Positions 25,634-35,203 of a DNA stretch of 64,000 nucleotides are shown in pieces. The first letter of the stretch is position 1. Each line of letters begins with the position of its first letter. This DNA is from Virgibacillus phasianinus (GTDB lineage Bacteria > Bacillota > Bacilli > Bacillales > Amphibacillaceae). A program made the translations under genes and the position numbers. The stretch lies in the NCBI RefSeq assembly GCF_002216775.1, contig NZ_CP022315.1, positions 1,798,001 through 1,862,000 on the forward strand. The letters are read 5' to 3'. The notes under the pieces are model-generated. The model had not been told where the DNA came from. It saw only the letters and a list, made by a program, of their open reading frames with translations, and did no database searches.

Positions 25634-26341
25634 ATGGATTTCATAGCACTATTGGGCTTTCTTAGTATTATCTTTTCAATTTTTTATCTAATTTTTCATT
25701 TTATTAAAAAGGCAAAACACAAAGAGAAAGTGCTTTCAAAGAAAATATTTTATCCCGCACTAATAGGAGGTTTCGTCTTCCTTATTCTAGGGATAAGCTT
25801 TATGGACACAGGTGTTCAAGGACAATTAAATAAGGCTTTAGAGAAAAATGAAGAGCTAACTAATAAAAACACTAACTTAAAATCAGAAAACAAGGAACTT
25901 AATAAGCAGGTTACGGCACTTGAATCCGAAATAAAGAAAAAGTCTTCAAAGGTTACTAAATACGAAAATAGTTTAAAATCATTAAAGGAGGAAAAAAGTG
26001 AATTTGATAAGGATAAGGAATCGTTAAACGATAAGATTAGTGATTTAACAGAAACAAAAACAAATTTAAAGGATAAAGTAATAAACCTAGAGTCAAAACT
26101 TGAAACCACTAAATCAAAATTAGCAAGTGCGCAATTGGTGTCTTCTAGTTCAAGCAAATCCACTACTGGAAATTCAAATTATGATTCTAGCACAACTAAT
26201 TCATCAGAAGTAAATTCAAACGTTTACTATGATAATTGCACAGCTGCAAAAGAAGCCGGTGCAGCCCCTGTTAGACGAGGTGACCCTGGATATGCTTCAC
26301 ATTTAGACAGAGATGGAGATGGGGTAGGGTGTGAATCTTAG
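25634..26341 (+). CDS. membrane-anchored coiled-coil protein with excalibur domain
   Basis: The 235-residue protein has two membrane helices (about residues 4-25 and 40-60), then a long charged coiled coil (about 70-165, Lys/Glu/Leu/Ser-rich), a Ser/Thr/Asn linker, and a C-terminal excalibur domain (about 198-235). That domain contains YYDNCTAAKEAGAAPVRRGD, then the calcium-binding-like DRDGDGVGCES with the paired cysteines. Excalibur domains occur on secreted nucleases and surface proteins. No catalytic domain is seen here, so the role is unknown. AAAGGGGG precedes the ATG. Confidence 0.82.
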   Translation: MDFIALLGFLSIIFSIFYLIFHFIKKAKHKEKVLSKKIFYPALIGGFVFLILGISFMDTGVQGQLNKALEKNEELTNKNTNLKSENKELNKQVTALESEIKKKSSKVTKYENSLKSLKEEKSEFDKDKESLNDKISDLTETKTNLKDKVINLESKLETTKSKLASAQLVSSSSSKSTTGNSNYDSSTTNSSEVNSNVYYDNCTAAKEAGAAPVRRGDPGYASHLDRDGDGVGCES

Positions 26342-26378
26342 AAAGAACATAACCTGAATTTTCAAGTTAGGTATTAAG

Positions 26379-26412
26379 GCGAGTATCAATTTATTAATTG
26401 ATACTCGTTATT
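26379..26412 (+). terminator. terminator after the excalibur gene
   Basis: CGAGTATCAATT and AATTGATACTCG pair perfectly around TATT, followed by TTATTGT. Confidence 0.75.
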
Positions 26413-26429
26413 GTATGCCAGGTATGCTG

Positions 26430-26522
26430 GGCATGCATCCCTTCGTATGTGCATCACGAAAAGACTGGTAATAATGCTATTCTACTATCATTGATATTGT
26501 AATGTGAAACGATTTTTTCCAT
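26430..26522 (-). pseudogene. comK remnant 1, just downstream of comK
   Basis: On the minus strand this reads MEKIVSHYNINDSRIALLPV and then stops, closely matching the start of the intact ComK (MEKIVTNYTINSNTMALLPA). A few bases further CTYEGMHA matches CTYEGIRCA from the middle of ComK. The stretch between them (about 35 codons in comK) and all of the C-terminal half are missing. It is a decayed tandem copy with an internal deletion. Confidence 0.75.
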
Positions 26523-26645
26523 TTAGAAAGTTGCTTTCTTAATGACTCTGCTTATTACTTATCCTGCACAACCCCTAGAATAATCTCCCTTATCATATAA
26601 GAACGAAGCCATGTTTTGCCTGCTCCGTTCTTATATAGGTTAAAC

Positions 26646-27215
26646 TTACTTCAATTCCAAATCACTATCATCCATAAATTCCTTACCATAATATAACTCT
26701 TTCATCCCTACCCCCATCTCTTGATGAAACATTGGGCCGCTTAAGCGCGAGGGGAATCTTAATAAACACATATTCGTTCGATGCATTTGTTTTTCTAATA
26801 TGTGATACGACTCGTTCATGTCTAGATGTTCTCCATTTTTGAAAGTTATAACTGATTGAATGGTCGGTTTTTCTATAGAATGCCTCCGTTTAATTTCCAT
26901 CACGTGGTTAGAAAAGATCCAAGCACACCGGAAATGTGTCGGAGCGTGGGTTGGAAAGGCGTAAATGCTTTTATTCTTATTGATGGGAATAGGAACTTTT
27001 TTTTGCCAACCGGTATGATGCATGACGGCACACCTTATCCCTTCATATGTGCAGAATTCAGCCAAACAAGCTAATTTGATCAGCTCGAGTGGTGTCTTTC
27101 TAACAAACAACCGCCGAGACTGTTCGATCACAATTGTGTCGTATTCGATATTTTTAGCTGGCAGCAAAGCCATTGTATTACTGTTTATAGTATAATTTGT
27201 TACGATTTTTTCCAT
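26646..27215 (-). CDS. comK: competence transcription factor ComK
   Basis: The 189-residue protein has the ComK pattern: an N-terminal NTMALLPAKNIEYDTIVIEQ, then CTYEGIRCAVMHHTGWQKKV, IYAFPTHAPTHFRCAWIFSN (B. subtilis: IFLFPTLSSTRPQCGWISHV), ITFKNGEHLDMNESYHILEKQ and MHRTNMCLLRF. ComK is the master activator of DNA-uptake genes and binds paired AT-rich boxes in the minor groove. I place the start at ATG 27215, with AAAAGGGG upstream; a longer reading frame has no support. It is adjacent to a sigma factor gene in the same direction and to one comK remnant, with another remnant at 56.3 kb. Confidence 0.85.
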   Translation of the reverse strand: MEKIVTNYTINSNTMALLPAKNIEYDTIVIEQSRRLFVRKTPLELIKLACLAEFCTYEGIRCAVMHHTGWQKKVPIPINKNKSIYAFPTHAPTHFRCAWIFSNHVMEIKRRHSIEKPTIQSVITFKNGEHLDMNESYHILEKQMHRTNMCLLRFPSRLSGPMFHQEMGVGMKELYYGKEFMDDSDLELK

Positions 27216-27645
27216 TGATAATGTTGCCCCTTTTATTTTAAGTAATAGGAAATGAATGTGGTGAAGGATGATGCCAAGGTAAATTGACTCCATTCTTTCT
27301 TTATTTTTTTGTAAACATGGTCAACGATAAAGTTTTAGGGCTGTGTCAGCGTTTAACGCGCAACTTGTTAAGCAGTTTATCGCTTCTCTCAAAATTATCC
27401 AAATGCTTTTCATCCATGTTTGTTTGCGATGCTAGCCGCTATTATGTATTATTGGGCTTTTTACGTCTCAGGTGTAAATGCTTCTCTAGTATAACCTTAA
27501 ACATCCCTTATTCTTCCACTTTTACCTACTTAAGAACTATTATAGCTTCTTTTTCGTCACTTGTGTAATACTTTTGAATTATTGGTTATATATGTAACTA
27601 ATAAAGGCAAAATGTCTTTTTTGCTCCTTATATTTAGCCTTCTTT
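27216..27645. other. gene-poor gap between comK and the sigma gene
   Basis: About 430 bases with no supported gene on either strand. The open frames here lack ribosome binding sites and have biased, non-protein-like composition. A 23-codon minus-strand frame (27346-27417, MDEKHLDNFERSDKLLNKLR) is possible but unsupported. The region probably holds the comK promoter on its left side and the downstream part of the sigma transcript on its right. Confidence 0.4.
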
Positions 27646-28128
27646 TTATTCATTTCGCAGCAATTGCTGAAGTTTTGGTTTCGCCTGTTTTGCCCAGGTT
27701 TTCACTGCTTCAATGCTTACTCCTTCAATCTCTGCAATGGTTTTGAGAGAAAGGTCCTGCAAGACAAACAAGGTGAACCACTTCATCTCTTTGTGCGTTA
27801 AAACCTGTTCAATTCTTTTAAGTTGATAAGGATCAAATTCTGTTTCAAGCACATAGGTTAAGCTCTTATCCGTATACCAATCCATCAATTCTAGCTTCTC
27901 AGGCTCCTTTGGCATTCGAATCAAGCTCAGGAGTGACTTTTCAATGAGGAAATAAGCATAGGTTGAGAGTTTTCCTCGCTTAGCGTTATGAGTTTGTACG
28001 GCCTTCCATAGTGCGATAAGCCCCTCTTGATAAAACTCTTTCTCTGGATCACGGATTTTTAATTTTTTCATCAGAAAATAAATTATAGCTTCATTTTCTT
28101 TTAATACATCATTAAACTCACTAGACAT
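27646..28128 (-). CDS. sigma-70 family RNA polymerase sigma factor
   Basis: The 160-residue protein has a region-2 segment (KKLKIRDPEKEFYQEGLIAL then WKAVQTHNAKRGKLSTYAYF) and a C-terminal region-4 helix-turn-helix (LQDLSLKTIAEIEGVSIEAV then KTWAKQAKPKLQQLL). Region 3 is absent. It is a paralogue of the sigma factor encoded divergently at 28427, sharing the .DP..EFYQEGL.A.W.A.QT motif. Small sigma factors of this type with comK nearby recall staphylococcal SigH, which controls competence genes; whether this one does so is inference. The start is ATG with TGAGG upstream. No anti-sigma gene is seen. Confidence 0.82.
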   Translation of the reverse strand: MSSEFNDVLKENEAIIYFLMKKLKIRDPEKEFYQEGLIALWKAVQTHNAKRGKLSTYAYFLIEKSLLSLIRMPKEPEKLELMDWYTDKSLTYVLETEFDPYQLKRIEQVLTHKEMKWFTLFVLQDLSLKTIAEIEGVSIEAVKTWAKQAKPKLQQLLRNE

Positions 28129-28340
28129 TACAGCCTCATATTCGATAAAGGACCTTTATCCATTTATTCCGCGGTAGGGTTATCATAGTGCAGGATTCAG
28201 CAATGGTCATCCTGGGAAACATAATCTTTCTCATATGAAAGTTCAATTATCTCTAGGAGAAAGTTGAAGAATGTTGGCGAAAATTAGGTTTTGATGCGGA
28301 GAATCTTCTTGTATTGCTGTTTTTACAATTTTTTTGAAAA

Positions 28341-28375
28341 TGATGCCCCCTATTCGATGGTTTCTTACGATTATA
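28341..28375 (+). promoter_or_regulatory. candidate alternative-sigma promoter, copy 1
   Basis: TGATGCC, 20 bases, CGATTATA, then CTAGTAG. The same two blocks at exactly the same spacing occur before the DnaD-type gene (29200-29234). A run of seven T and an AT-rich patch precede both. The element ends 52 bases before the sigma start codon and supports ATG 28427 as the real start. Confidence 0.6.
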
Positions 28376-28426
28376 CTAGTAGGACCACAAAATATGGTTC
28401 GTTCAATATTGGAATGGGGGATAAAA

Positions 28427-28999
28427 ATGGACAAGGACATGAATGTGACGTTTGAAGAAGTTTACGAACAAAATAAGCGGAGGATCCATTACCATATTCA
28501 TAAATTGCATATCCATGATCCACATCAAGAATTCTATCAGGAAGGGCTTTGTGCCATGTGGAATGCTTATCAAACCTATCAGCCTGATAAAGGTGTTATG
28601 TCTACGTATTTCAACTATACGATTCGTAACCGATTAATCGATATACTTAGAAAGAAGACGAGAGAACAGCAGCATGATGACAGTTGTGTACAGGAGGTAG
28701 GGGCTGCCCTCTATAGTGGTAATCGAAATCGAAAAAGTGAAACACCGATTCCCGATTATACCGGTATTTCCGTAGACGATTCATCTGATGAGATGTGGGA
28801 ACAAGTAAAATCCCAGCTAACAGAGGCCCAATGGAATTGGGTTTACCATTACATTATCTTAAACATGTCCATCAAAGAAATAGCCGAGAAACAAGGAACT
28901 ACCATCGACGCCGTAAAAAGCCAAGGCAAACGAGCCCGCCAGAAACTGAAAGAAGTGTGGATTGGGACGGAGGGACAGGTCCCTCGTCCCGCTCGTTAA
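28427..28999 (+). CDS. sigma-70 family RNA polymerase sigma factor, paralogue
   Basis: The 190-residue protein has region 2 (HKLHIHDPHQEFYQEGLCAM, WNAYQTYQPDKGVMSTYFNY, IRNRLIDILRKK) and region 4 (LNMSIKEIAEKQGTTIDAVK, SQGKRARQKLKEV), separated by a Ser/Asn-rich linker. AATGGGGG lies before ATG 28427; an earlier in-frame start would include the promoter-like element. The final residues (GTEGQVPRPAR) and the stop come from a palindromic repeat that begins inside the gene, so the native end has been altered. It may recognise its own promoter and that of the DnaD-type gene, as judged from the shared upstream element. Confidence 0.82.
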   Translation: MDKDMNVTFEEVYEQNKRRIHYHIHKLHIHDPHQEFYQEGLCAMWNAYQTYQPDKGVMSTYFNYTIRNRLIDILRKKTREQQHDDSCVQEVGAALYSGNRNRKSETPIPDYTGISVDDSSDEMWEQVKSQLTEAQWNWVYHYIILNMSIKEIAEKQGTTIDAVKSQGKRARQKLKEVWIGTEGQVPRPAR

Positions 29000-29038
29000 C
29001 CTAAGGGGGTGGTCCGGGGGACGGGTTCCCTGTCCCGT
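28964..29038 (+). repeat. two palindromic GGGACAGG elements at the sigma gene end
   Basis: GGGACGGAGGGACAGGTCCCTCGTCCC at 28964 overlaps the last codons of the sigma gene, and GGGGGACGGGTTCCCTGTCCC follows at about 29016. Both are imperfect inverted repeats of the same family as the elements at 1746, 2199, 4271 and 35566. Confidence 0.7.
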
Positions 29039-29157
29039 TTTGTAAACATAGATAAAGCTAGCATTCCATGCGTTATCAAGGGGTGCTGGTTTTTCGTTAT
29101 ATCTTTATAACTTTAGTAGATATGATTAGGCATCAGACGATAAAAGGCCTGGGAATT

Positions 29158-29180
29158 GTGGGACAGGTAACCCATGTCCC
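29158..29180 (+). repeat. degraded palindromic GGGACAGG element
   Basis: GTGGGACAGGTAACCCATGTCCC, a third member of the family within 220 bases, just before the promoter-like element of the next gene. Confidence 0.6.
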
Positions 29181-29199
29181 TTTAAAATTTTTTTATTTT

Positions 29200-29234
29200 T
29201 GATGCCACCTAATTGGGTATTTCTTTCGATTATA
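29200..29234 (+). promoter_or_regulatory. candidate alternative-sigma promoter, copy 2
   Basis: TGATGCC, 20 bases, CGATTATA, then GATAGTAG, the same as the element before the sigma gene at 28341. It ends 38 bases before the start codon of the DnaD-type gene. The intervening bases also share CCTA, ATT and TTTCTT in register. Confidence 0.6.
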
Positions 29235-29271
29235 GATAGTAGAGAGTTTTTTATAAAAAGGGTGGTTGACG

Positions 29272-30111
29272 ATGAATTATATTAAACAGCTGAACGAATT
29301 TCATTTTAGAATTGATTTGGAGCCGATTTCGGTTAATGCACGCTCACTATGGTATACATTAACGGATATTAATAATAAATTATGCTGGCGCGAGGAATTT
29401 ACAGTTGCTGCATCAAAGTTAAGTGATAAAGCAGGATTGACGGAGAGCAGCTTCAAGCGTGCTCGCAAAGAATTAGAGGAAAATGGATATATTCAGGTGA
29501 CTTCCAGAAATGGAAATCAGTCTGCGTTGTATAAGATGGTTTGTTTATATGCGAATGCGGTTAATAAAACGAATGCCCCTGATCCACAGCATATGCAAAA
29601 AGTGGACCACAATCTGGACGGCAACCTGGACGCATTAACTAAACAGAAACAAAAAAGAAAACAAAACAATACAACAAATACAACTACAACAGACGCGGTG
29701 GTATTTTTCCAAGATAATTTCGGTTTGATCAATCCGTATGTGGCGAATGACATTATTCAGTGGGTTTCGGATGCAGGCGAACCCATTGTTTTGCATGCGA
29801 TGAAGCGTGCTTTGGAACAGGGGAAAGGAAATTGGGGATATGTGAAGGGGATTCTCCAGGCGTGGGCCAAAAAGGGAATTACCGAGGTAGAAGCTGCCCA
29901 GGAAGAAGAGAAGAACTTTCGTGTTGGGCGTGAGAGGAAGCCGCGTTCGTATGGCGGGAGTGGGACAGTTATTAGTGAAGTGATACCAGATTGGTTTAGG
30001 GAACAGAAGCGCAAGAAGCGGAAACAAGTGGTAGAGATGGTGGAAGTGATGGATCCTGTTGCGGAGAAGGAAGAGGTTGAGAGATTGCTGGCGGGGTTGA
30101 GGCAAGGATGA
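29272..30111 (+). CDS. DnaD-domain replication protein, phage/plasmid type
   Basis: The 279-residue protein has an N-terminal winged-helix domain (residues 1-90; ASKLSDKAGLTESSFKRARK then ELEENGYIQVTSRNG), a polar linker with TKQKQKRKQNNTTNTTTTDA, and a DnaD/DnaB_2 domain (about 140-205; FFQDNFGLINPYVANDIIQW, ALEQGKGNWGYVKGILQAWA). A basic tail follows (WFREQKRKKRKQ). Proteins of this kind open or remodel origins and load helicase for phages and plasmids. No other replication or phage genes surround it, so it is probably a leftover or a host-adopted gene. ATG 29272 follows GGGTGG. It shares a promoter-like element with the upstream sigma gene. Confidence 0.82.
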   Translation: MNYIKQLNEFHFRIDLEPISVNARSLWYTLTDINNKLCWREEFTVAASKLSDKAGLTESSFKRARKELEENGYIQVTSRNGNQSALYKMVCLYANAVNKTNAPDPQHMQKVDHNLDGNLDALTKQKQKRKQNNTTNTTTTDAVVFFQDNFGLINPYVANDIIQWVSDAGEPIVLHAMKRALEQGKGNWGYVKGILQAWAKKGITEVEAAQEEEKNFRVGRERKPRSYGGSGTVISEVIPDWFREQKRKKRKQVVEMVEVMDPVAEKEEVERLLAGLRQG

Positions 30112-30148
30112 TTGGTTGGCTGGTGAATGGGTGAGGGTGGAATGATAG

Positions 30149-30240
30149 CAGGAACAATACCGGAACCATTGCAGGAACAATACCCGGAACAATAAAAGGA
30201 ACCATTTCCGGATCAATACCGGAACATACTTATACATAAA
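30149..30240 (+). repeat. 12-bp direct repeat array after the DnaD-type gene
   Basis: Five to seven tandem units of the type GAACAATACCCG (variants GAACCATTGCAG, GAACAATAAAAG, GAACCATTTCCG, GATCAATACCG) recur every 11-12 bases. In one frame they encode a Gly-Thr-Ile repeat (TGTIAGTIPGTIKGTISG) followed by a Lys-rich broken tail. They could be replication iterons or the linker of a decayed DnaD-type paralogue. I cannot decide between these from sequence. Confidence 0.55.
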
Positions 30241-30430
30241 TAAAATAAAAAGAGAAGAGGGGAAGGGGACAGGTGCGAAACAATAAAAAGGTGGGAGTTT
30301 CAGGATAAACCCGAAAAAGATAAAAGCACTGAATGTTTGATGGTGTTAGTGCAAATACAACCATTTCAATTTTTAATTTTAAATTAAAATTATAATTTTC
30401 TAATTTATATATTTCCATAATTTCACATAA

Positions 30431-30439
30431 TGGTATAAT
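30431..30439 (+). promoter_or_regulatory. extended -10 promoter of the CoiA-like gene
   Basis: TGGTATAAT has the TGn extension and lies 23 bases before ATG 30462, inside a strongly AT-rich stretch (30355-30440). Confidence 0.5.
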
Positions 30440-30461
30440 AGTCCTATAACCATTAGAAGGG

Positions 30462-32033
30462 ATGGTGTATAACTTGGATTCTGCCTACCTACATAATTCC
30501 GTTTTTAACATTGAACTGAAAAGAAGAGAATTAGAACAGAAAAAACTAACAAGGTCAGAAGTTATACGTTGGTTCGAAGTCAATTATCGTGTTTTTTCAA
30601 AGAAGAGTGCTTTTACCTGTTTATGCTGCAACAAACCGGTAAATATGAATTTAATCAAAGAAGAAGGAAGACCCTTTTACTTTAGGCATATTGATGAAAG
30701 TGAATGTTCTTATTCTGAAAACACAAACACCTATCATAAGCATGTCTCTAAGCATGAGGATAAATCTAAAAAAGATATTGGACTCACCATTTTTCGTGAG
30801 TTATTAGAGGGAGAGTTGAAACCTTACAATGCAGAAATTGGGAGGGGGTATCATTACAGAAAGAAACTCTCGTTTATTCCGGATTTTATCATAAAGTTTC
30901 CGAATTCTGATGAACGTTGGGCGATTGATTATTTTACTGCCATTAATCAAGGGTTAACATCCGGAAGTTATGCCCGACACCTTTCCAAACGAATGAAAAC
31001 CTATAAAGAAGAGGAATTTAAGCACTTTTCATTTGTTGATAGCAGTTGGCTTTCCTTTTTAGACGAAACGAATAAAGGCACCCTCCTAAAGGCTGAAACC
31101 TATGTAACTAGTAAGACACATGAAGATGATCTTTGGGATACATTTCTAACCGAAAATGTACAGGGTGAACTATTAGACTACTTAACACAAGATACAGGTA
31201 CAGAAGTGGAAGAGTTTAATACGATGAATATTGCATATGTAGATGTTTTTAATCGATTATGTACCATCTTCCGTTTCATACCAATATCGCAACATGATCG
31301 CACTATAACGTTTTATAAATTATCTTCTTCAGAGGTGCCTCTGGATCGGGCTTTGTCGATGAATGCACAACAAAACCATTTTGTATTTTCAAAGGAGAAT
31401 GAGGACGGAAAGAGAAACGATTTTCTTAAGGAACTAATTGAACGGAAAGCACAATTTGAGCTAGAACAAAAAATGTTGGATGAGGAGCAACAAAGAATCA
31501 AAGAAATGGACGAAGAAAAGCAAAAACAAATTCAGAAAGCAAAGTATCTGGAAGATGAAAAATTTGAAAGAGAAAGACAAGAAACGATGAGAATAGCCGC
31601 TCAAAGGCCAATTGAGGTTCATCCAGATTATTGGGATTATCAAAAACAAAGAAAGTTCCAGTTTGGTAAATATACCTATCAACAAAGCCAACCTGAATCC
31701 AGTTACAAGAAAACTGAGGATAGTATAGACAAAAAGAAAGAAAAGAAGGTTAGAGAAGCGCTTCTGTCGCATCCTATTAAGGGTGAACTGTATATTGATG
31801 GGGAAACTAGGGCTTGGCGGAAAGCAATATTGAAATGGATAGATGAAAATCAATCTGGTGAAACGATGGTTGTTTCGTTAGAGAAGTTAATTGGTCATAT
31901 GAAAAGTTCTGGGGTCTCTTTTAATCAAAATGATAACCTTGCAAAGTATCCGGTTAAGGTATTTCTTGAGTTTTATGTGAAGACGATAAAAGCAGAGCTT
32001 AAGAAAAGGATTAATCTTTCTTTTCAGGAATAG
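30462..32033 (+). CDS. CoiA-like nuclease with zinc-finger-like N-terminus
   Basis: The 523-residue protein has a CoiA-like N-terminus: a Cys-x2-Cys (C53/C56) in FTCLCCNKPV, then FYFRHIDESECSYSENTNTY with H76 and C82, and further His residues (about 92-98). A nuclease-like core follows (about 135-165) with FIPDFIIKF (Asp141) and WAIDYFTAI (Asp156), resembling the PD-(D/E)XK core of CoiA. A long charged coiled coil (about 330-390) and a C-terminal helical region complete it. CoiA is a competence-induced protein that promotes recombination; diverged relatives also occur in defence and mobile contexts. It is larger than typical CoiA (about 370). GTG 30465 and TTG 30474 are alternative starts with better spacing. 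A helicase gene follows after 164 bases. Confidence 0.65.
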   Translation: MVYNLDSAYLHNSVFNIELKRRELEQKKLTRSEVIRWFEVNYRVFSKKSAFTCLCCNKPVNMNLIKEEGRPFYFRHIDESECSYSENTNTYHKHVSKHEDKSKKDIGLTIFRELLEGELKPYNAEIGRGYHYRKKLSFIPDFIIKFPNSDERWAIDYFTAINQGLTSGSYARHLSKRMKTYKEEEFKHFSFVDSSWLSFLDETNKGTLLKAETYVTSKTHEDDLWDTFLTENVQGELLDYLTQDTGTEVEEFNTMNIAYVDVFNRLCTIFRFIPISQHDRTITFYKLSSSEVPLDRALSMNAQQNHFVFSKENEDGKRNDFLKELIERKAQFELEQKMLDEEQQRIKEMDEEKQKQIQKAKYLEDEKFERERQETMRIAAQRPIEVHPDYWDYQKQRKFQFGKYTYQQSQPESSYKKTEDSIDKKKEKKVREALLSHPIKGELYIDGETRAWRKAILKWIDENQSGETMVVSLEKLIGHMKSSGVSFNQNDNLAKYPVKVFLEFYVKTIKAELKKRINLSFQE

Positions 32034-32197
32034 GCTCCCCGTTTCAAACAAAACCATCCAAAAGAGATAGTCTATAACTTATGAACTGAATAGGTTTATT
32101 TTGCATTAACACAATAGCAAATTGATAATACAGTTATTGTTCTAAATGAAAGGCCTACAAAATGGAAATGTAAATGCTGTCCTGGGGGATTAGTGTT

Positions 32198-35100
32198 ATG
32201 GAGAAAATTAAAATTAAAAAAAATGTGTTTACTTATAATGTTGATGAAAATAATAAACTTGTTAAGCCCGTTGACGTATTTAAATCATGGATTCAAGGTT
32301 ATCAAGAAAAACGTTCTAGGGCGGAGGAAGAGGAGGGATTGAGGTTTCCTCAATATGGTGCGTTGAATGCAATCAGAGCTCATTGGACAATAAGTAATGA
32401 GACTGCCACTATAGTCATGCCAACAGGTACAGGAAAAACGGAGACCATGTTTGCTACAATTCTTTCAGAAAGACTAAAAACAACCCTAATTGTTGTACCC
32501 TCAAACTTATTAAGGAAACAAATTTATGAAAATGTCCAGCACTTCGGGATATTTCCAAGGATAGGTATGGTGGACCCATCAATTTTAATGCCTAATACTA
32601 CCATTTTGGCTAGTATTCCATCAAATATTGATGAACTAAAAGAACTAGTAGAAAATTCAAATGTCATAGTATCGACAATGTCCTTATTAGCTAAATTTGA
32701 AGGTTCATATAAAGAGCATTTATCTACAATATGTGACACATTAATTATTGATGAGGCCCATCATATTGCAGCAAGCACGTGGTCTAATTTTAAAGAGTAT
32801 TTCAGGGAGAAAAAGATACTTCAATTCACCGCTACACCATATAGAGATGATGGGAAGCGAATAGCTGGTAAACTCATATATAACTATCCCTTGGCTTTAG
32901 CCCAGGATCAAGGGTACTTCAAAAACATAGAATACTATCCCGTTGAAGAATTTGATGAATTAAAAGGGGATATAGCTATCGCAAAAAGGGCTGTAGAGAT
33001 CCTAAAAAAAGATATGGATAAAGGAAATAAACATATAATTTTAGCAAGAGCAGGTAATAGGGACAGAGCAAAGTTTCTTTTTGACAATATTTATAGCAAA
33101 TATTACTCAGAATTTAACCCCGTGTTGGTAATCAGTGGACAACCTAAATCAGTAAATACCTCGTCTATGAAAAAATTACGGGAATACAAATGTCAAATTG
33201 TAGTTTGTGTAGATATGTTTGGAGAAGGAGTAGATATTCCTTCCTTAAAGATTGCTGCTGTTCATGATAAGTATAAAACGCTGCCAATAACGCTTCAATT
33301 TATCGGTAGGTTTGCACGTTCAAAGGAGAACTTAGGTGATGCCAAGTTAATTACCAATATAGCTAATGATGACCTAAAAAATCAAATGGCAGAATTATTC
33401 CAACAGGATTCTGATTGGAACAAACTTCTAAGTGTAGTTTCTACTGAGAAAATTGCCGAGGAGATAAATATACACACCTTGTTAGAAAGTCTAGATAATA
33501 AAGATATTTCTGATATAGATATTTATCAATTACAAATGAAAATTAGCACAAGAATGTTTAACTATTCAAAAAGCGAATGGCTTAATGAAAATTGGACAAA
33601 AGTTTTAGATCCCGATAACGCTATGTGCTACTATTCAAAATCAGAGAAACTAATGGTTTTAGTTGAAAAGGTTGAATCTACTGTTGCTTGGTCAACTCAA
33701 AAAGCTATTACTGAACTAGATTGGAATCTGTTCGTGATTTATTATGATACTGTCAATAACATAATTCATGTTAATGAAACCGATCAAGGAAAAGGAAACA
33801 GACTTATTGAAGCCATGTTTCCTGAAAGCAATAGAATTCAAGGTGATGTAATTTTTAGAATACTAGATGGTGTGAATAGATTGATGATTGGAACATTAGG
33901 GTTGCGAAATGAACTACCTGGGAAAGTAAGTTATAGAATGTTTGCAGGAACAGATGTGGCTGAGGGAGTTTCAAACGCAATTAGGGGAACATCAACAAAA
34001 TCAAACCTATTTGGTAATGGCTTTAATGGGAATGGAAAAATTAGCATTGGTTGTTCTTATAGAGGGAAAGTTTGGTCCAGATGGATTGAATCAATAAATT
34101 ATTGGAAAAATTGGTGTAACCATATGTCAAAGAAAGTTAGAGATAATAATATAAATCCCGTGGATATCTTAGAAGGATCTTTAAGAGGAATAATGGTTTC
34201 TTCTTTTCCAAAGGGAATTTTATATAAAGCTGAATTAGCAAATGATGCTGAACTAGAAAATTCACCAAGAAAGGGATTTATTGTAGAAAAAAGTGATAAA
34301 ATAGTACCCCTATCTGATTGTGAACTGAATATCAATAATGAAAAGAGTGACAATGAAAAGCTCATTTTAACGTTAGAAATTCAAGGTAGAAAAATTGAGT
34401 TTCAGTATTCGTTAACCGAAGACTATTTTAAAATTACTAAGATAAGTAAAACGGAAATATTTTATGTATCGGGGAAGACTAAAATCACTGCACAAGAATA
34501 TTTTATGAATGAGCCTCCAAGAGTTTGGATTATGGGGGAAGGTAAAATATACTCATTAGAGTCAAATATACAGGTGGAATTATATGGACCAACTAGTGGT
34601 AAGTTTGGTGGAAAACAAATCTTTCCAATAGATTGGGAACAACTTAATGTTAATATAAAAAAAGAGTCCCAAGGGAGACATAAAGATTCAACCTCAATTC
34701 AATATTCTATGATTAATCATGTTTTGCAAAAAGATGACTATCAGATTATTTTTGATGATGATGGTTCCGGAGAAGTTGCTGATATTGTAGCAATTAAGGA
34801 AACAAATGAAATGATAGAATTCGACTTTTTCCATTGTAAGTATTCTAGTAAAGAAATTCCAGGTGCGAGAACGAAGGATTTATACGAGGTATGTGGACAA
34901 ACCGAGAAATCCCTACGTTGGGCAAATGATTACGTGTCATTGGTGGAAAGATTGATGTATAGAGAAAATAGGTATTTGGCGAAAACGGGGACAGATTCTA
35001 GAATCGAAAAGGGTTCTCTTAATGACTTGAATACTATCAAAAATAAATTGAAGGCTGGTAAGAAAGCTCGAATAAACATGAATATTGTTCAACCTGGTGT

Positions 35101-35203
35101 ACAAAGTAAAATAATTTCAGATGAAATGAATATTATTTTATTAGCATGTGAATCATTTTTGCGCGATACTTATGGTTCCAATGTAGTTTTGTATTGTAGT
35201 TAG
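32198..35203 (+). CDS. SF2 DEAD/DEAH helicase with nuclease-like C-terminus
   Basis: The 1001-residue protein has a full SF2 core: Walker A MPTGTGKTET (about residue 73), DEAH in LIIDEAHHIAASTW (about 183), FTATPYRDD (about 209), VVCVDMFGEGVDIPSLKIAA (about 340) and LQFIGRFARSKENLG (about 366). A long middle region of unknown fold follows. Near the C-terminus, GEVADIVAIKETNEMIEFDF then FHCKYSSKEIPGARTKDLYE (about 858-895) looks like a PD-(D/E)XK core (Asp862, then Asp/Glu and Lys882). A helicase fused to a nuclease, with no housekeeping counterpart, suggests a phage-defence or restriction-type enzyme. This is inference. GGGGG precedes ATG 32198; an earlier ATG has no ribosome binding site. 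Confidence 0.75.
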   Translation: MEKIKIKKNVFTYNVDENNKLVKPVDVFKSWIQGYQEKRSRAEEEEGLRFPQYGALNAIRAHWTISNETATIVMPTGTGKTETMFATILSERLKTTLIVVPSNLLRKQIYENVQHFGIFPRIGMVDPSILMPNTTILASIPSNIDELKELVENSNVIVSTMSLLAKFEGSYKEHLSTICDTLIIDEAHHIAASTWSNFKEYFREKKILQFTATPYRDDGKRIAGKLIYNYPLALAQDQGYFKNIEYYPVEEFDELKGDIAIAKRAVEILKKDMDKGNKHIILARAGNRDRAKFLFDNIYSKYYSEFNPVLVISGQPKSVNTSSMKKLREYKCQIVVCVDMFGEGVDIPSLKIAAVHDKYKTLPITLQFIGRFARSKENLGDAKLITNIANDDLKNQMAELFQQDSDWNKLLSVVSTEKIAEEINIHTLLESLDNKDISDIDIYQLQMKISTRMFNYSKSEWLNENWTKVLDPDNAMCYYSKSEKLMVLVEKVESTVAWSTQKAITELDWNLFVIYYDTVNNIIHVNETDQGKGNRLIEAMFPESNRIQGDVIFRILDGVNRLMIGTLGLRNELPGKVSYRMFAGTDVAEGVSNAIRGTSTKSNLFGNGFNGNGKISIGCSYRGKVWSRWIESINYWKNWCNHMSKKVRDNNINPVDILEGSLRGIMVSSFPKGILYKAELANDAELENSPRKGFIVEKSDKIVPLSDCELNINNEKSDNEKLILTLEIQGRKIEFQYSLTEDYFKITKISKTEIFYVSGKTKITAQEYFMNEPPRVWIMGEGKIYSLESNIQVELYGPTSGKFGGKQIFPIDWEQLNVNIKKESQGRHKDSTSIQYSMINHVLQKDDYQIIFDDDGSGEVADIVAIKETNEMIEFDFFHCKYSSKEIPGARTKDLYEVCGQTEKSLRWANDYVSLVERLMYRENRYLAKTGTDSRIEKGSLNDLNTIKNKLKAGKKARINMNIVQPGVQSKIISDEMNIILLACESFLRDTYGSNVVLYCS

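Follow-up and report, generated by a model that had tools for sequence, protein, structure and literature searches.

The two-block element that precedes a small sigma-factor gene (sig1) and a DnaD-type gene (dnaD1) in Virgibacillus phasianinus is probably the promoter of a small group of region-2/region-4 sigma factors, which would activate its own gene together with a phage-type helicase-loading set. The element is conserved in relatives, where it recurs before the same set of genes and co-occurs with this sigma family. From these comparisons of sequence, we infer that it is a promoter and that the sig1 product is its reader.

Layout of the element and the genes around it

In the window, that is, the whole 64-kb stretch of DNA that was analysed, TGATGCC-N20-CGATTATA occurs twice with identical spacing, as exact + strand matches at 28341-28375 and 29200-29234, just as the sequence-only reading had described it. 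There is no third exact match elsewhere in the window, and allowing up to 3 mismatches yields 5 window sites against 1.99 expected. The same reading had pointed to agreement within the spacer, and 12 of the 20 spacer bases are indeed identical between both copies, notably CCTA, so that the left block is better written as ATGCCNCCTAWT, giving the sharpened core ATGCCNCCTAWT-N13-CGATTATA. Read as a promoter, copy 1 would present a -35-like GCCCCC (28345-28350) and a -10-like CGATTATA (28368-28375), and copy 2 a -35-like GCCACC (29204-29209) and the same -10-like block (29227-29234), in each case 17 bp apart. Copy 1 is kept before sig1 orthologues and copy 2 before relatives of dnaD1, and a conserved, promoter-like two-block signal of the form GCCNCC-17 bp-CGATTATA is supported. 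An A/T-rich tract, read from the sequence, abuts copy 1 upstream (28321-28340, + strand), and similar tracts accompany copy 2 (29180-29199) and the aligned relatives. From the 3' end of the element to the ATG there are 51 bases at sig1 and 37 bases at dnaD1. The hexamer TAGTAG, which had been counted as part of the arrangement, does stand behind both copies, at an offset of 1 base for copy 1 and 2 bases for copy 2, but is not constant in relatives.

The gene behind copy 1, sig1 (28427-28999, + strand), encodes a 190-aa sigma factor whose regions 2 and 4 both exceed the Pfam cut-offs (Sigma70_r2, 41.8 bits, cut-off 24; Sigma70_r4_2, 27.4 bits, cut-off 25.7); its best NCBIfam match, PRK06759, falls under the cut-off of that family. 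Behind copy 2, dnaD1 (29272-30111, + strand) encodes a 279-aa DnaD-domain protein (Pfam DnaB_2; TIGR01446) that is a relative of phage-type helicase loaders (PHROG 186, DnaD-like helicase loader). Head to head with sig1 lies a second small sigma gene, sig2 (27646-28128, - strand; 160 aa; Pfam r2 and r4_2), which belongs to a clade distinct from sig1 in the tree (support 100/99), and beyond sig2 lies a comK homologue (26646-27236, - strand; Pfam ComK E=2.8e-35), the start given here being provisional. A plasmid or phage origin of sig1 was considered and rejected, since none of the matching records (3 from plasmids, 1 from a phage) exceeded 32% identity. PADLOC gave no match for sig1 or dnaD1.

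Several further features mark this region. Between sig1 and dnaD1, a terminator-like hairpin followed by GTTTTG (29018-29036, + strand) was picked up by pattern scan only, and such hairpins are not in excess in the region (2 against 1.8 expected from shuffles). Several GGGACAGG...CCTGTCCC-like repeats are spread over 28974-29183, from within the end of sig1 into the stretch ahead of dnaD1. Upstream of sig2 stands an inverted repeat, GATAAAGGACCTTTATC (28144-28160), read from the sequence, with related sequence upstream of sig2 orthologues. Across 28144-28178 on the - strand, ACCGCGGAATAA is followed by the inverted repeat GATAAAGGTCCTTTATC, with similar blocks at the sig2 orthologues L045-L053; these blocks are a separate putative control site. 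At 30462-35203, a 523-aa protein (DUF7830, below cut-off) and, after it, a 1009-aa ResIII/DEAD helicase may form a defence pair; the helicase has weak matches to PbeA and to restriction-type proteins. An Rfam search of 26000-31000 returned no match at gathering score. A housekeeping promoter was rejected as a candidate, a consensus scan having placed no + strand site over either element (9 sites in all against 7.1 expected).

A recent local duplication of the upstream region had been put forward as the alternative source of the two copies, which lie 859 bases apart and have 27 of 35 bases in common. Alignment of their flanks, however, gives scores of 13 and 15, which do not stand out from shuffles (medians 14 and 14), and the two copies are therefore no fresh local duplication. 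Unlinked and cross-genus copies exist as well, and we discard the duplication proposal; together with chance, it strikes us as extremely improbable.

Recurrence in the genome and in relatives

The genome (G000) is a single contig (C1) of 4,071,214 bases, and searching all of it for TGATGCC-N20-CGATTATA with up to 3 mismatches gave 94+92 matches against 52+40 in a backwards control, mostly noise. Five one-mismatch matches are one identical 35-mer, and since the copy at L003, the only one opened, sits in an ORF that we take to be transposase-like, these five were not counted. With the sharpened core, there are 3 exact matches and 7 with 2-3 mismatches (backwards control 4). The genome-wide search that the sequence-only reading had proposed thus did produce a further hit, namely a third exact copy of the core at C1:4029883 (- strand), unlinked to the window, behind which lie an excisionase-like HTH ORF, a second DnaD gene, a helicase-loader-like gene and a DnaB-family helicase gene. 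A variant with a gap one base shorter, at C1:1778676 (+ strand), precedes a DUF1659-DUF2922 pair; this N13 form has 1 exact match in the genome and 0 in the control. Relaxed patterns with up to 2 mismatches stay near the control (13 against 10 and 15 against 10), and we used matches with 0-1 mismatches, one of which (C1:2854779) falls within a coding region. A regulon of just the sigma and DnaD genes, as initially envisaged, is too small: both genes are included, but there are four sites in this genome, all of which precede gene families that recur behind the element elsewhere. Near C1:2196000 of the same genome, an 87-aa ORF (L333:1547-1807) weakly resembles a sigma factor, in region 4 only and with a score below the Pfam cut-off.

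A check in relatives bore out the original observation, as the element recurs across genera before the same kinds of genes, with GMCMCC-N16/17-CGATTATA preceding sigma orthologues, DnaD genes or operons, DUF1659-DUF2922 operons and amidases. In G001, a genome of the same genus, there are seven exact GCCNCCNAA-N14-CGATTATA sites. Two of them lead sig1 orthologues (70% identity) and three lead dnaD1-like genes, of which one is whole, one is interrupted and one is a short fragment; the other two precede excisionase-like HTH ORFs, in one case with dnaD fragments behind the ORF. The N13-type sites of this genome lead two DUF1659-DUF2922 pairs (so named because they resemble L283), an amidase, two HTH or HTH-DnaD loci and a further dnaD-like gene, and a YvrJ ORF comes after an element-led DUF1659-DUF2922 pair both here (L282) and in G024. 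An exact scan of 397 genomes for GMCMCCWAW-N14-CGATTATA found 34 sites in 24 genomes against 1 backwards. We opened 32 of these 34 sites, leaving out one each in G230 and G124. Behind 13 of them lie sig1-type genes, behind 6 DnaD-type genes or the HTH-DnaD operon, and behind 1 each an amidase, a holin-like ORF (PHROG E=9e-4) and an HTH_36 protein; 3 more lead short ORFs, of which the one scanned has no Pfam family, and the remaining 7 do not precede any gene of the set.

A contig scan with the sig1 protein alone found no relative; the alignment-based scan yielded sigma loci chosen by protein similarity, of which the best 80 of 136 were used. A matrix built from 28 sites was applied to these loci, one of which (L185) was in the training set. 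Scores lie above the 99th percentile of 1500 background segments in 32 of the best 80 of 136 loci and above the background maximum in 29, with 48 of the 80 having no matrix match; in the 32 scoring loci, the gap after the 9-mer is 13 bases in 25 and 14 in 7. Over the 586 kb scanned for these best 80 of 136 loci, 30 of the 47 matches scoring at least 12 fall in the 160 bp ahead of a gene homologous to one of the ten reference genes. Such windows cover 1.6% of positions, and the reversed control gave 4 matches. The regions of three ordinary dnaD genes, by the same measure, contain no element (best score 7.4 against a threshold of 7.6).

Candidate readers of the element and the link to comK

The N13 form is found as an exact match in 13 of 21 sig1-type genomes, a grouping for which G006 and G015 are borderline, against 4 of 40 others (P=4e-5). 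Match totals are 49 against 4 (backwards controls 1 and 7), and G002 (17) and G029 (11) give the majority of the 49. Among these 53 matches, those in G000, G001, G002, G006, G013, G019, G024, G025 and G029 were opened, and single matches in G005, G009, G010, G012, G030, G032, G049 and G051 were left unopened. This co-occurrence, which was tested for the N13 form, favours sig1 as the reader. The element might instead be read by a sig2-type factor (27646-28128), alone or together with sig1, which would place sig2 upstream and make sig1 a target; we consider this rather unlikely. In four relatives (G011, G016, G017 and G030), the N14 form leads HTH-DnaD operons or DUF1659 and, of the two sigma types, only sig2 was found, and in the window sig2 stands head to head with sig1 and adjoins comK. 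Conversely, sig1-type genes of G002 and G042 carry the element and neither genome gave a sig2-type match, the N13 form tracks sig1-type genomes, and sig2 orthologues carry a different upstream block, ACCGCGGAATA. Given the four sig2-only relatives, either sigma may read the element, and on the simplest view both types would be able to read this promoter class. Of the earlier proposal that the sigma factor at 28427 directs its own gene and the DnaD gene, a shared signal that tracks the sigma family stands, with sig1 as the probable reader and sig2 as its rival.

There is also a slim chance that another conserved sigma factor, for example SigI, reads the element and that sig1 is merely a target. 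SigI exceeds its family cut-off in 46 of 61 relatives, including this genome, where it has a separate gene (C1:226309-226974), and the Bacillales SigI consensus given in a passage of PMC4711584, ACCCCC--AA-N15-CGAA----T, has similar blocks, namely a C-rich -35 and a -10 starting CGA. The -10 of the element is nevertheless CGATTATA rather than CGAA, the blocks are 23 rather than 25 bases apart, and many relatives with SigI have no N13 or N14 matches. That sig1 is itself SigI was rejected: sig1 does not pass the SigI cut-off, the SigI gene lies elsewhere, and the consensus as printed in that passage is unmatched.

The many copies in G002 and G029 bear on whether the element is a promoter at all. 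Of their 28 N13 sites, 5 precede DUF1659, amidase, DnaD or sigma genes and 2 precede LCP-like genes, many others having no obvious target, and the element alone is no proof that its neighbour is regulated. Such numbers (17 and 11 exact copies, many targetless, three of them near-palindromes) would fit a dispersed repeat, a hairpin or a protein-binding site. We nonetheless hold a non-promoter role to be improbable, since the element, where it leads genes of the set, is on their coding strand and at much the same short distance from the start codon, its one-base gap variation is promoter-like, and the spacers are unrelated between copies. The near-palindromic copies are at L384:3544, L387:815 and L389:856, and in L384 and L389 the -10 blocks share CGAT on both strands. 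In L374 and L392, from the same two genomes, a DUF1659-DUF2922 operon is divergent from a second gene, presumably LytR-CpsA-Psr-like, and each has its own copy of the element.

Among the best 80 of 136 sigma loci, 23 have a comK homologue in the flanking sequence analysed, 22 times upstream on the opposite strand and once downstream (ComK was Pfam-confirmed in three), and 34 have a DnaD-type gene there. The element is found in 0 of these 23 comK-linked loci against 32 of the 57 others (P=5e-7), whereas AAGTTA[GC], often then followed by TATGAT-like sequence, is found upstream in 15 of the 23 against 6 of the 57 (P=2e-6), again among the best 80 of 136. The lack of the element from all 23 comK-linked loci suggests a two-tier circuit, in which an entry sigma would lie near comK and an amplifier sigma would carry the element. 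Loci with the element turn up here and there across several subclades of the tree, even among close paralogues of comK-linked genes, as for L212 beside L182, both from Virgibacillus subterraneus; L043 groups with the sig1-type sequences. The window is exceptional, in that sig1 has the element and yet lies 1.2 kb from comK, with sig2 in between. At L137, L138, L147, L153, L184 and other comK-linked loci without the element, AAGTTAG and a TATGAT-like sequence lie at about 3400 in the locus, and some comK-linked loci without the element have a TGCCGGCA palindrome before the sigma gene.

The proposed circuit and its known counterparts

In region-2/region-4 sigma factors, region 4 contacts the -35 and region 2 the -10. 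Going by such factors in general, region 4 of sig1 would read GMCMCC and region 2 would read CGATTATA in a promoter of the form -35 GMCMCC, 16-17 bp, -10 CGATTATA, with an A/T tract upstream. Polymerase carrying sig1 would then transcribe sig1 itself, in a positive feedback, would also raise dnaD1, and would drive both the distant operon (excisionase-like HTH, second DnaD, loader and DnaB-like helicase) and the DUF1659-DUF2922 pair, the likely outcome being a surge of spare helicase-loading proteins. The sigma copies that lie close to comK in relatives may set off the circuit, which the element-bearing copies would amplify. The PHROG matches of the targets (DnaD-like loader, helicase loader, DnaB-like helicase and endolysin) suggest that these are of phage type, and the proximity of comK hints at a role of the programme in competence or DNA handling. 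A more specific reading, which we offer tentatively and think doubtful as a whole, is that a comK-linked small sigma starts an autoregulated paralogue, which in turn would switch on a second, phage-derived helicase-loading machine (HTH, DnaD, loader and DnaB) and DUF1659-DUF2922-YvrJ, with a cell-wall amidase in relatives, as a domesticated, phage-like replication and wall-lysis programme for competence or DNA release. The comK-linked sigma of that reading would be sig2 here and sig1-type genes in Oceanobacillus, Ornithinibacillus, Lentibacillus and Virgibacillus.

The system appears to work like an autoregulated regulon of an ECF-type (group IV) sigma factor, in that sig1 has regions 2 and 4 only, as judged by Pfam, and genes of this sigma type are themselves repeatedly preceded by the promoter-like element that the putative targets also carry. 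It differs in its -10, CGATTATA, and in targets that include replication-initiation proteins. Among the listed ORFs of the window, no anti-sigma gene was recognised beside sig1. The targets resemble phage replication modules in matching PHROGs 186, 2289 and 19; here, however, no phage genes were recognised around the loci read, and the genes are scattered in chromosomes and seem to share a sigma-type promoter. With the competence sigma factors ComX/SigX and SigH, the system has in common a small sigma whose gene neighbourhood links it to a competence regulator, but their -10-type box, TACGAATA, is unlike CGATTATA. Among the sites opened, no late competence operon was recognised behind the element. 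SigO-RsoA of Bacillus subtilis starts the yvrJ operon, according to a passage of PMC8103513, so that YvrJ is a target family common to both systems, and a table of differentially expressed genes for sorted competent B. subtilis cells in PMC7317962 lists rsoA at 8.7 and sigO at 3.9. SigO-RsoA is split into two proteins, whereas sig1 holds both regions in one.

Among the matches listed from the open-access literature, none dealt with the sigma-DnaD-comK set. An autoregulated sigma factor is in itself ordinary; what is unusual is that the recurrent targets are duplicate replication-initiation proteins and that the sigma genes often lie near comK. If the reading in which a comK-linked sigma starts the programme were true, there would be a competence-linked sigma system distinct from ComX and SigH. 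If the element is the promoter that we propose, it would provide a rule for predicting which genes make up the regulon of a sigma group that has received little study, in Bacillaceae such as Lentibacillus and Virgibacillus. The roles of the spare DnaD/DnaB proteins, like those of the DUF1659, DUF2922 and YvrJ families, would then become testable.
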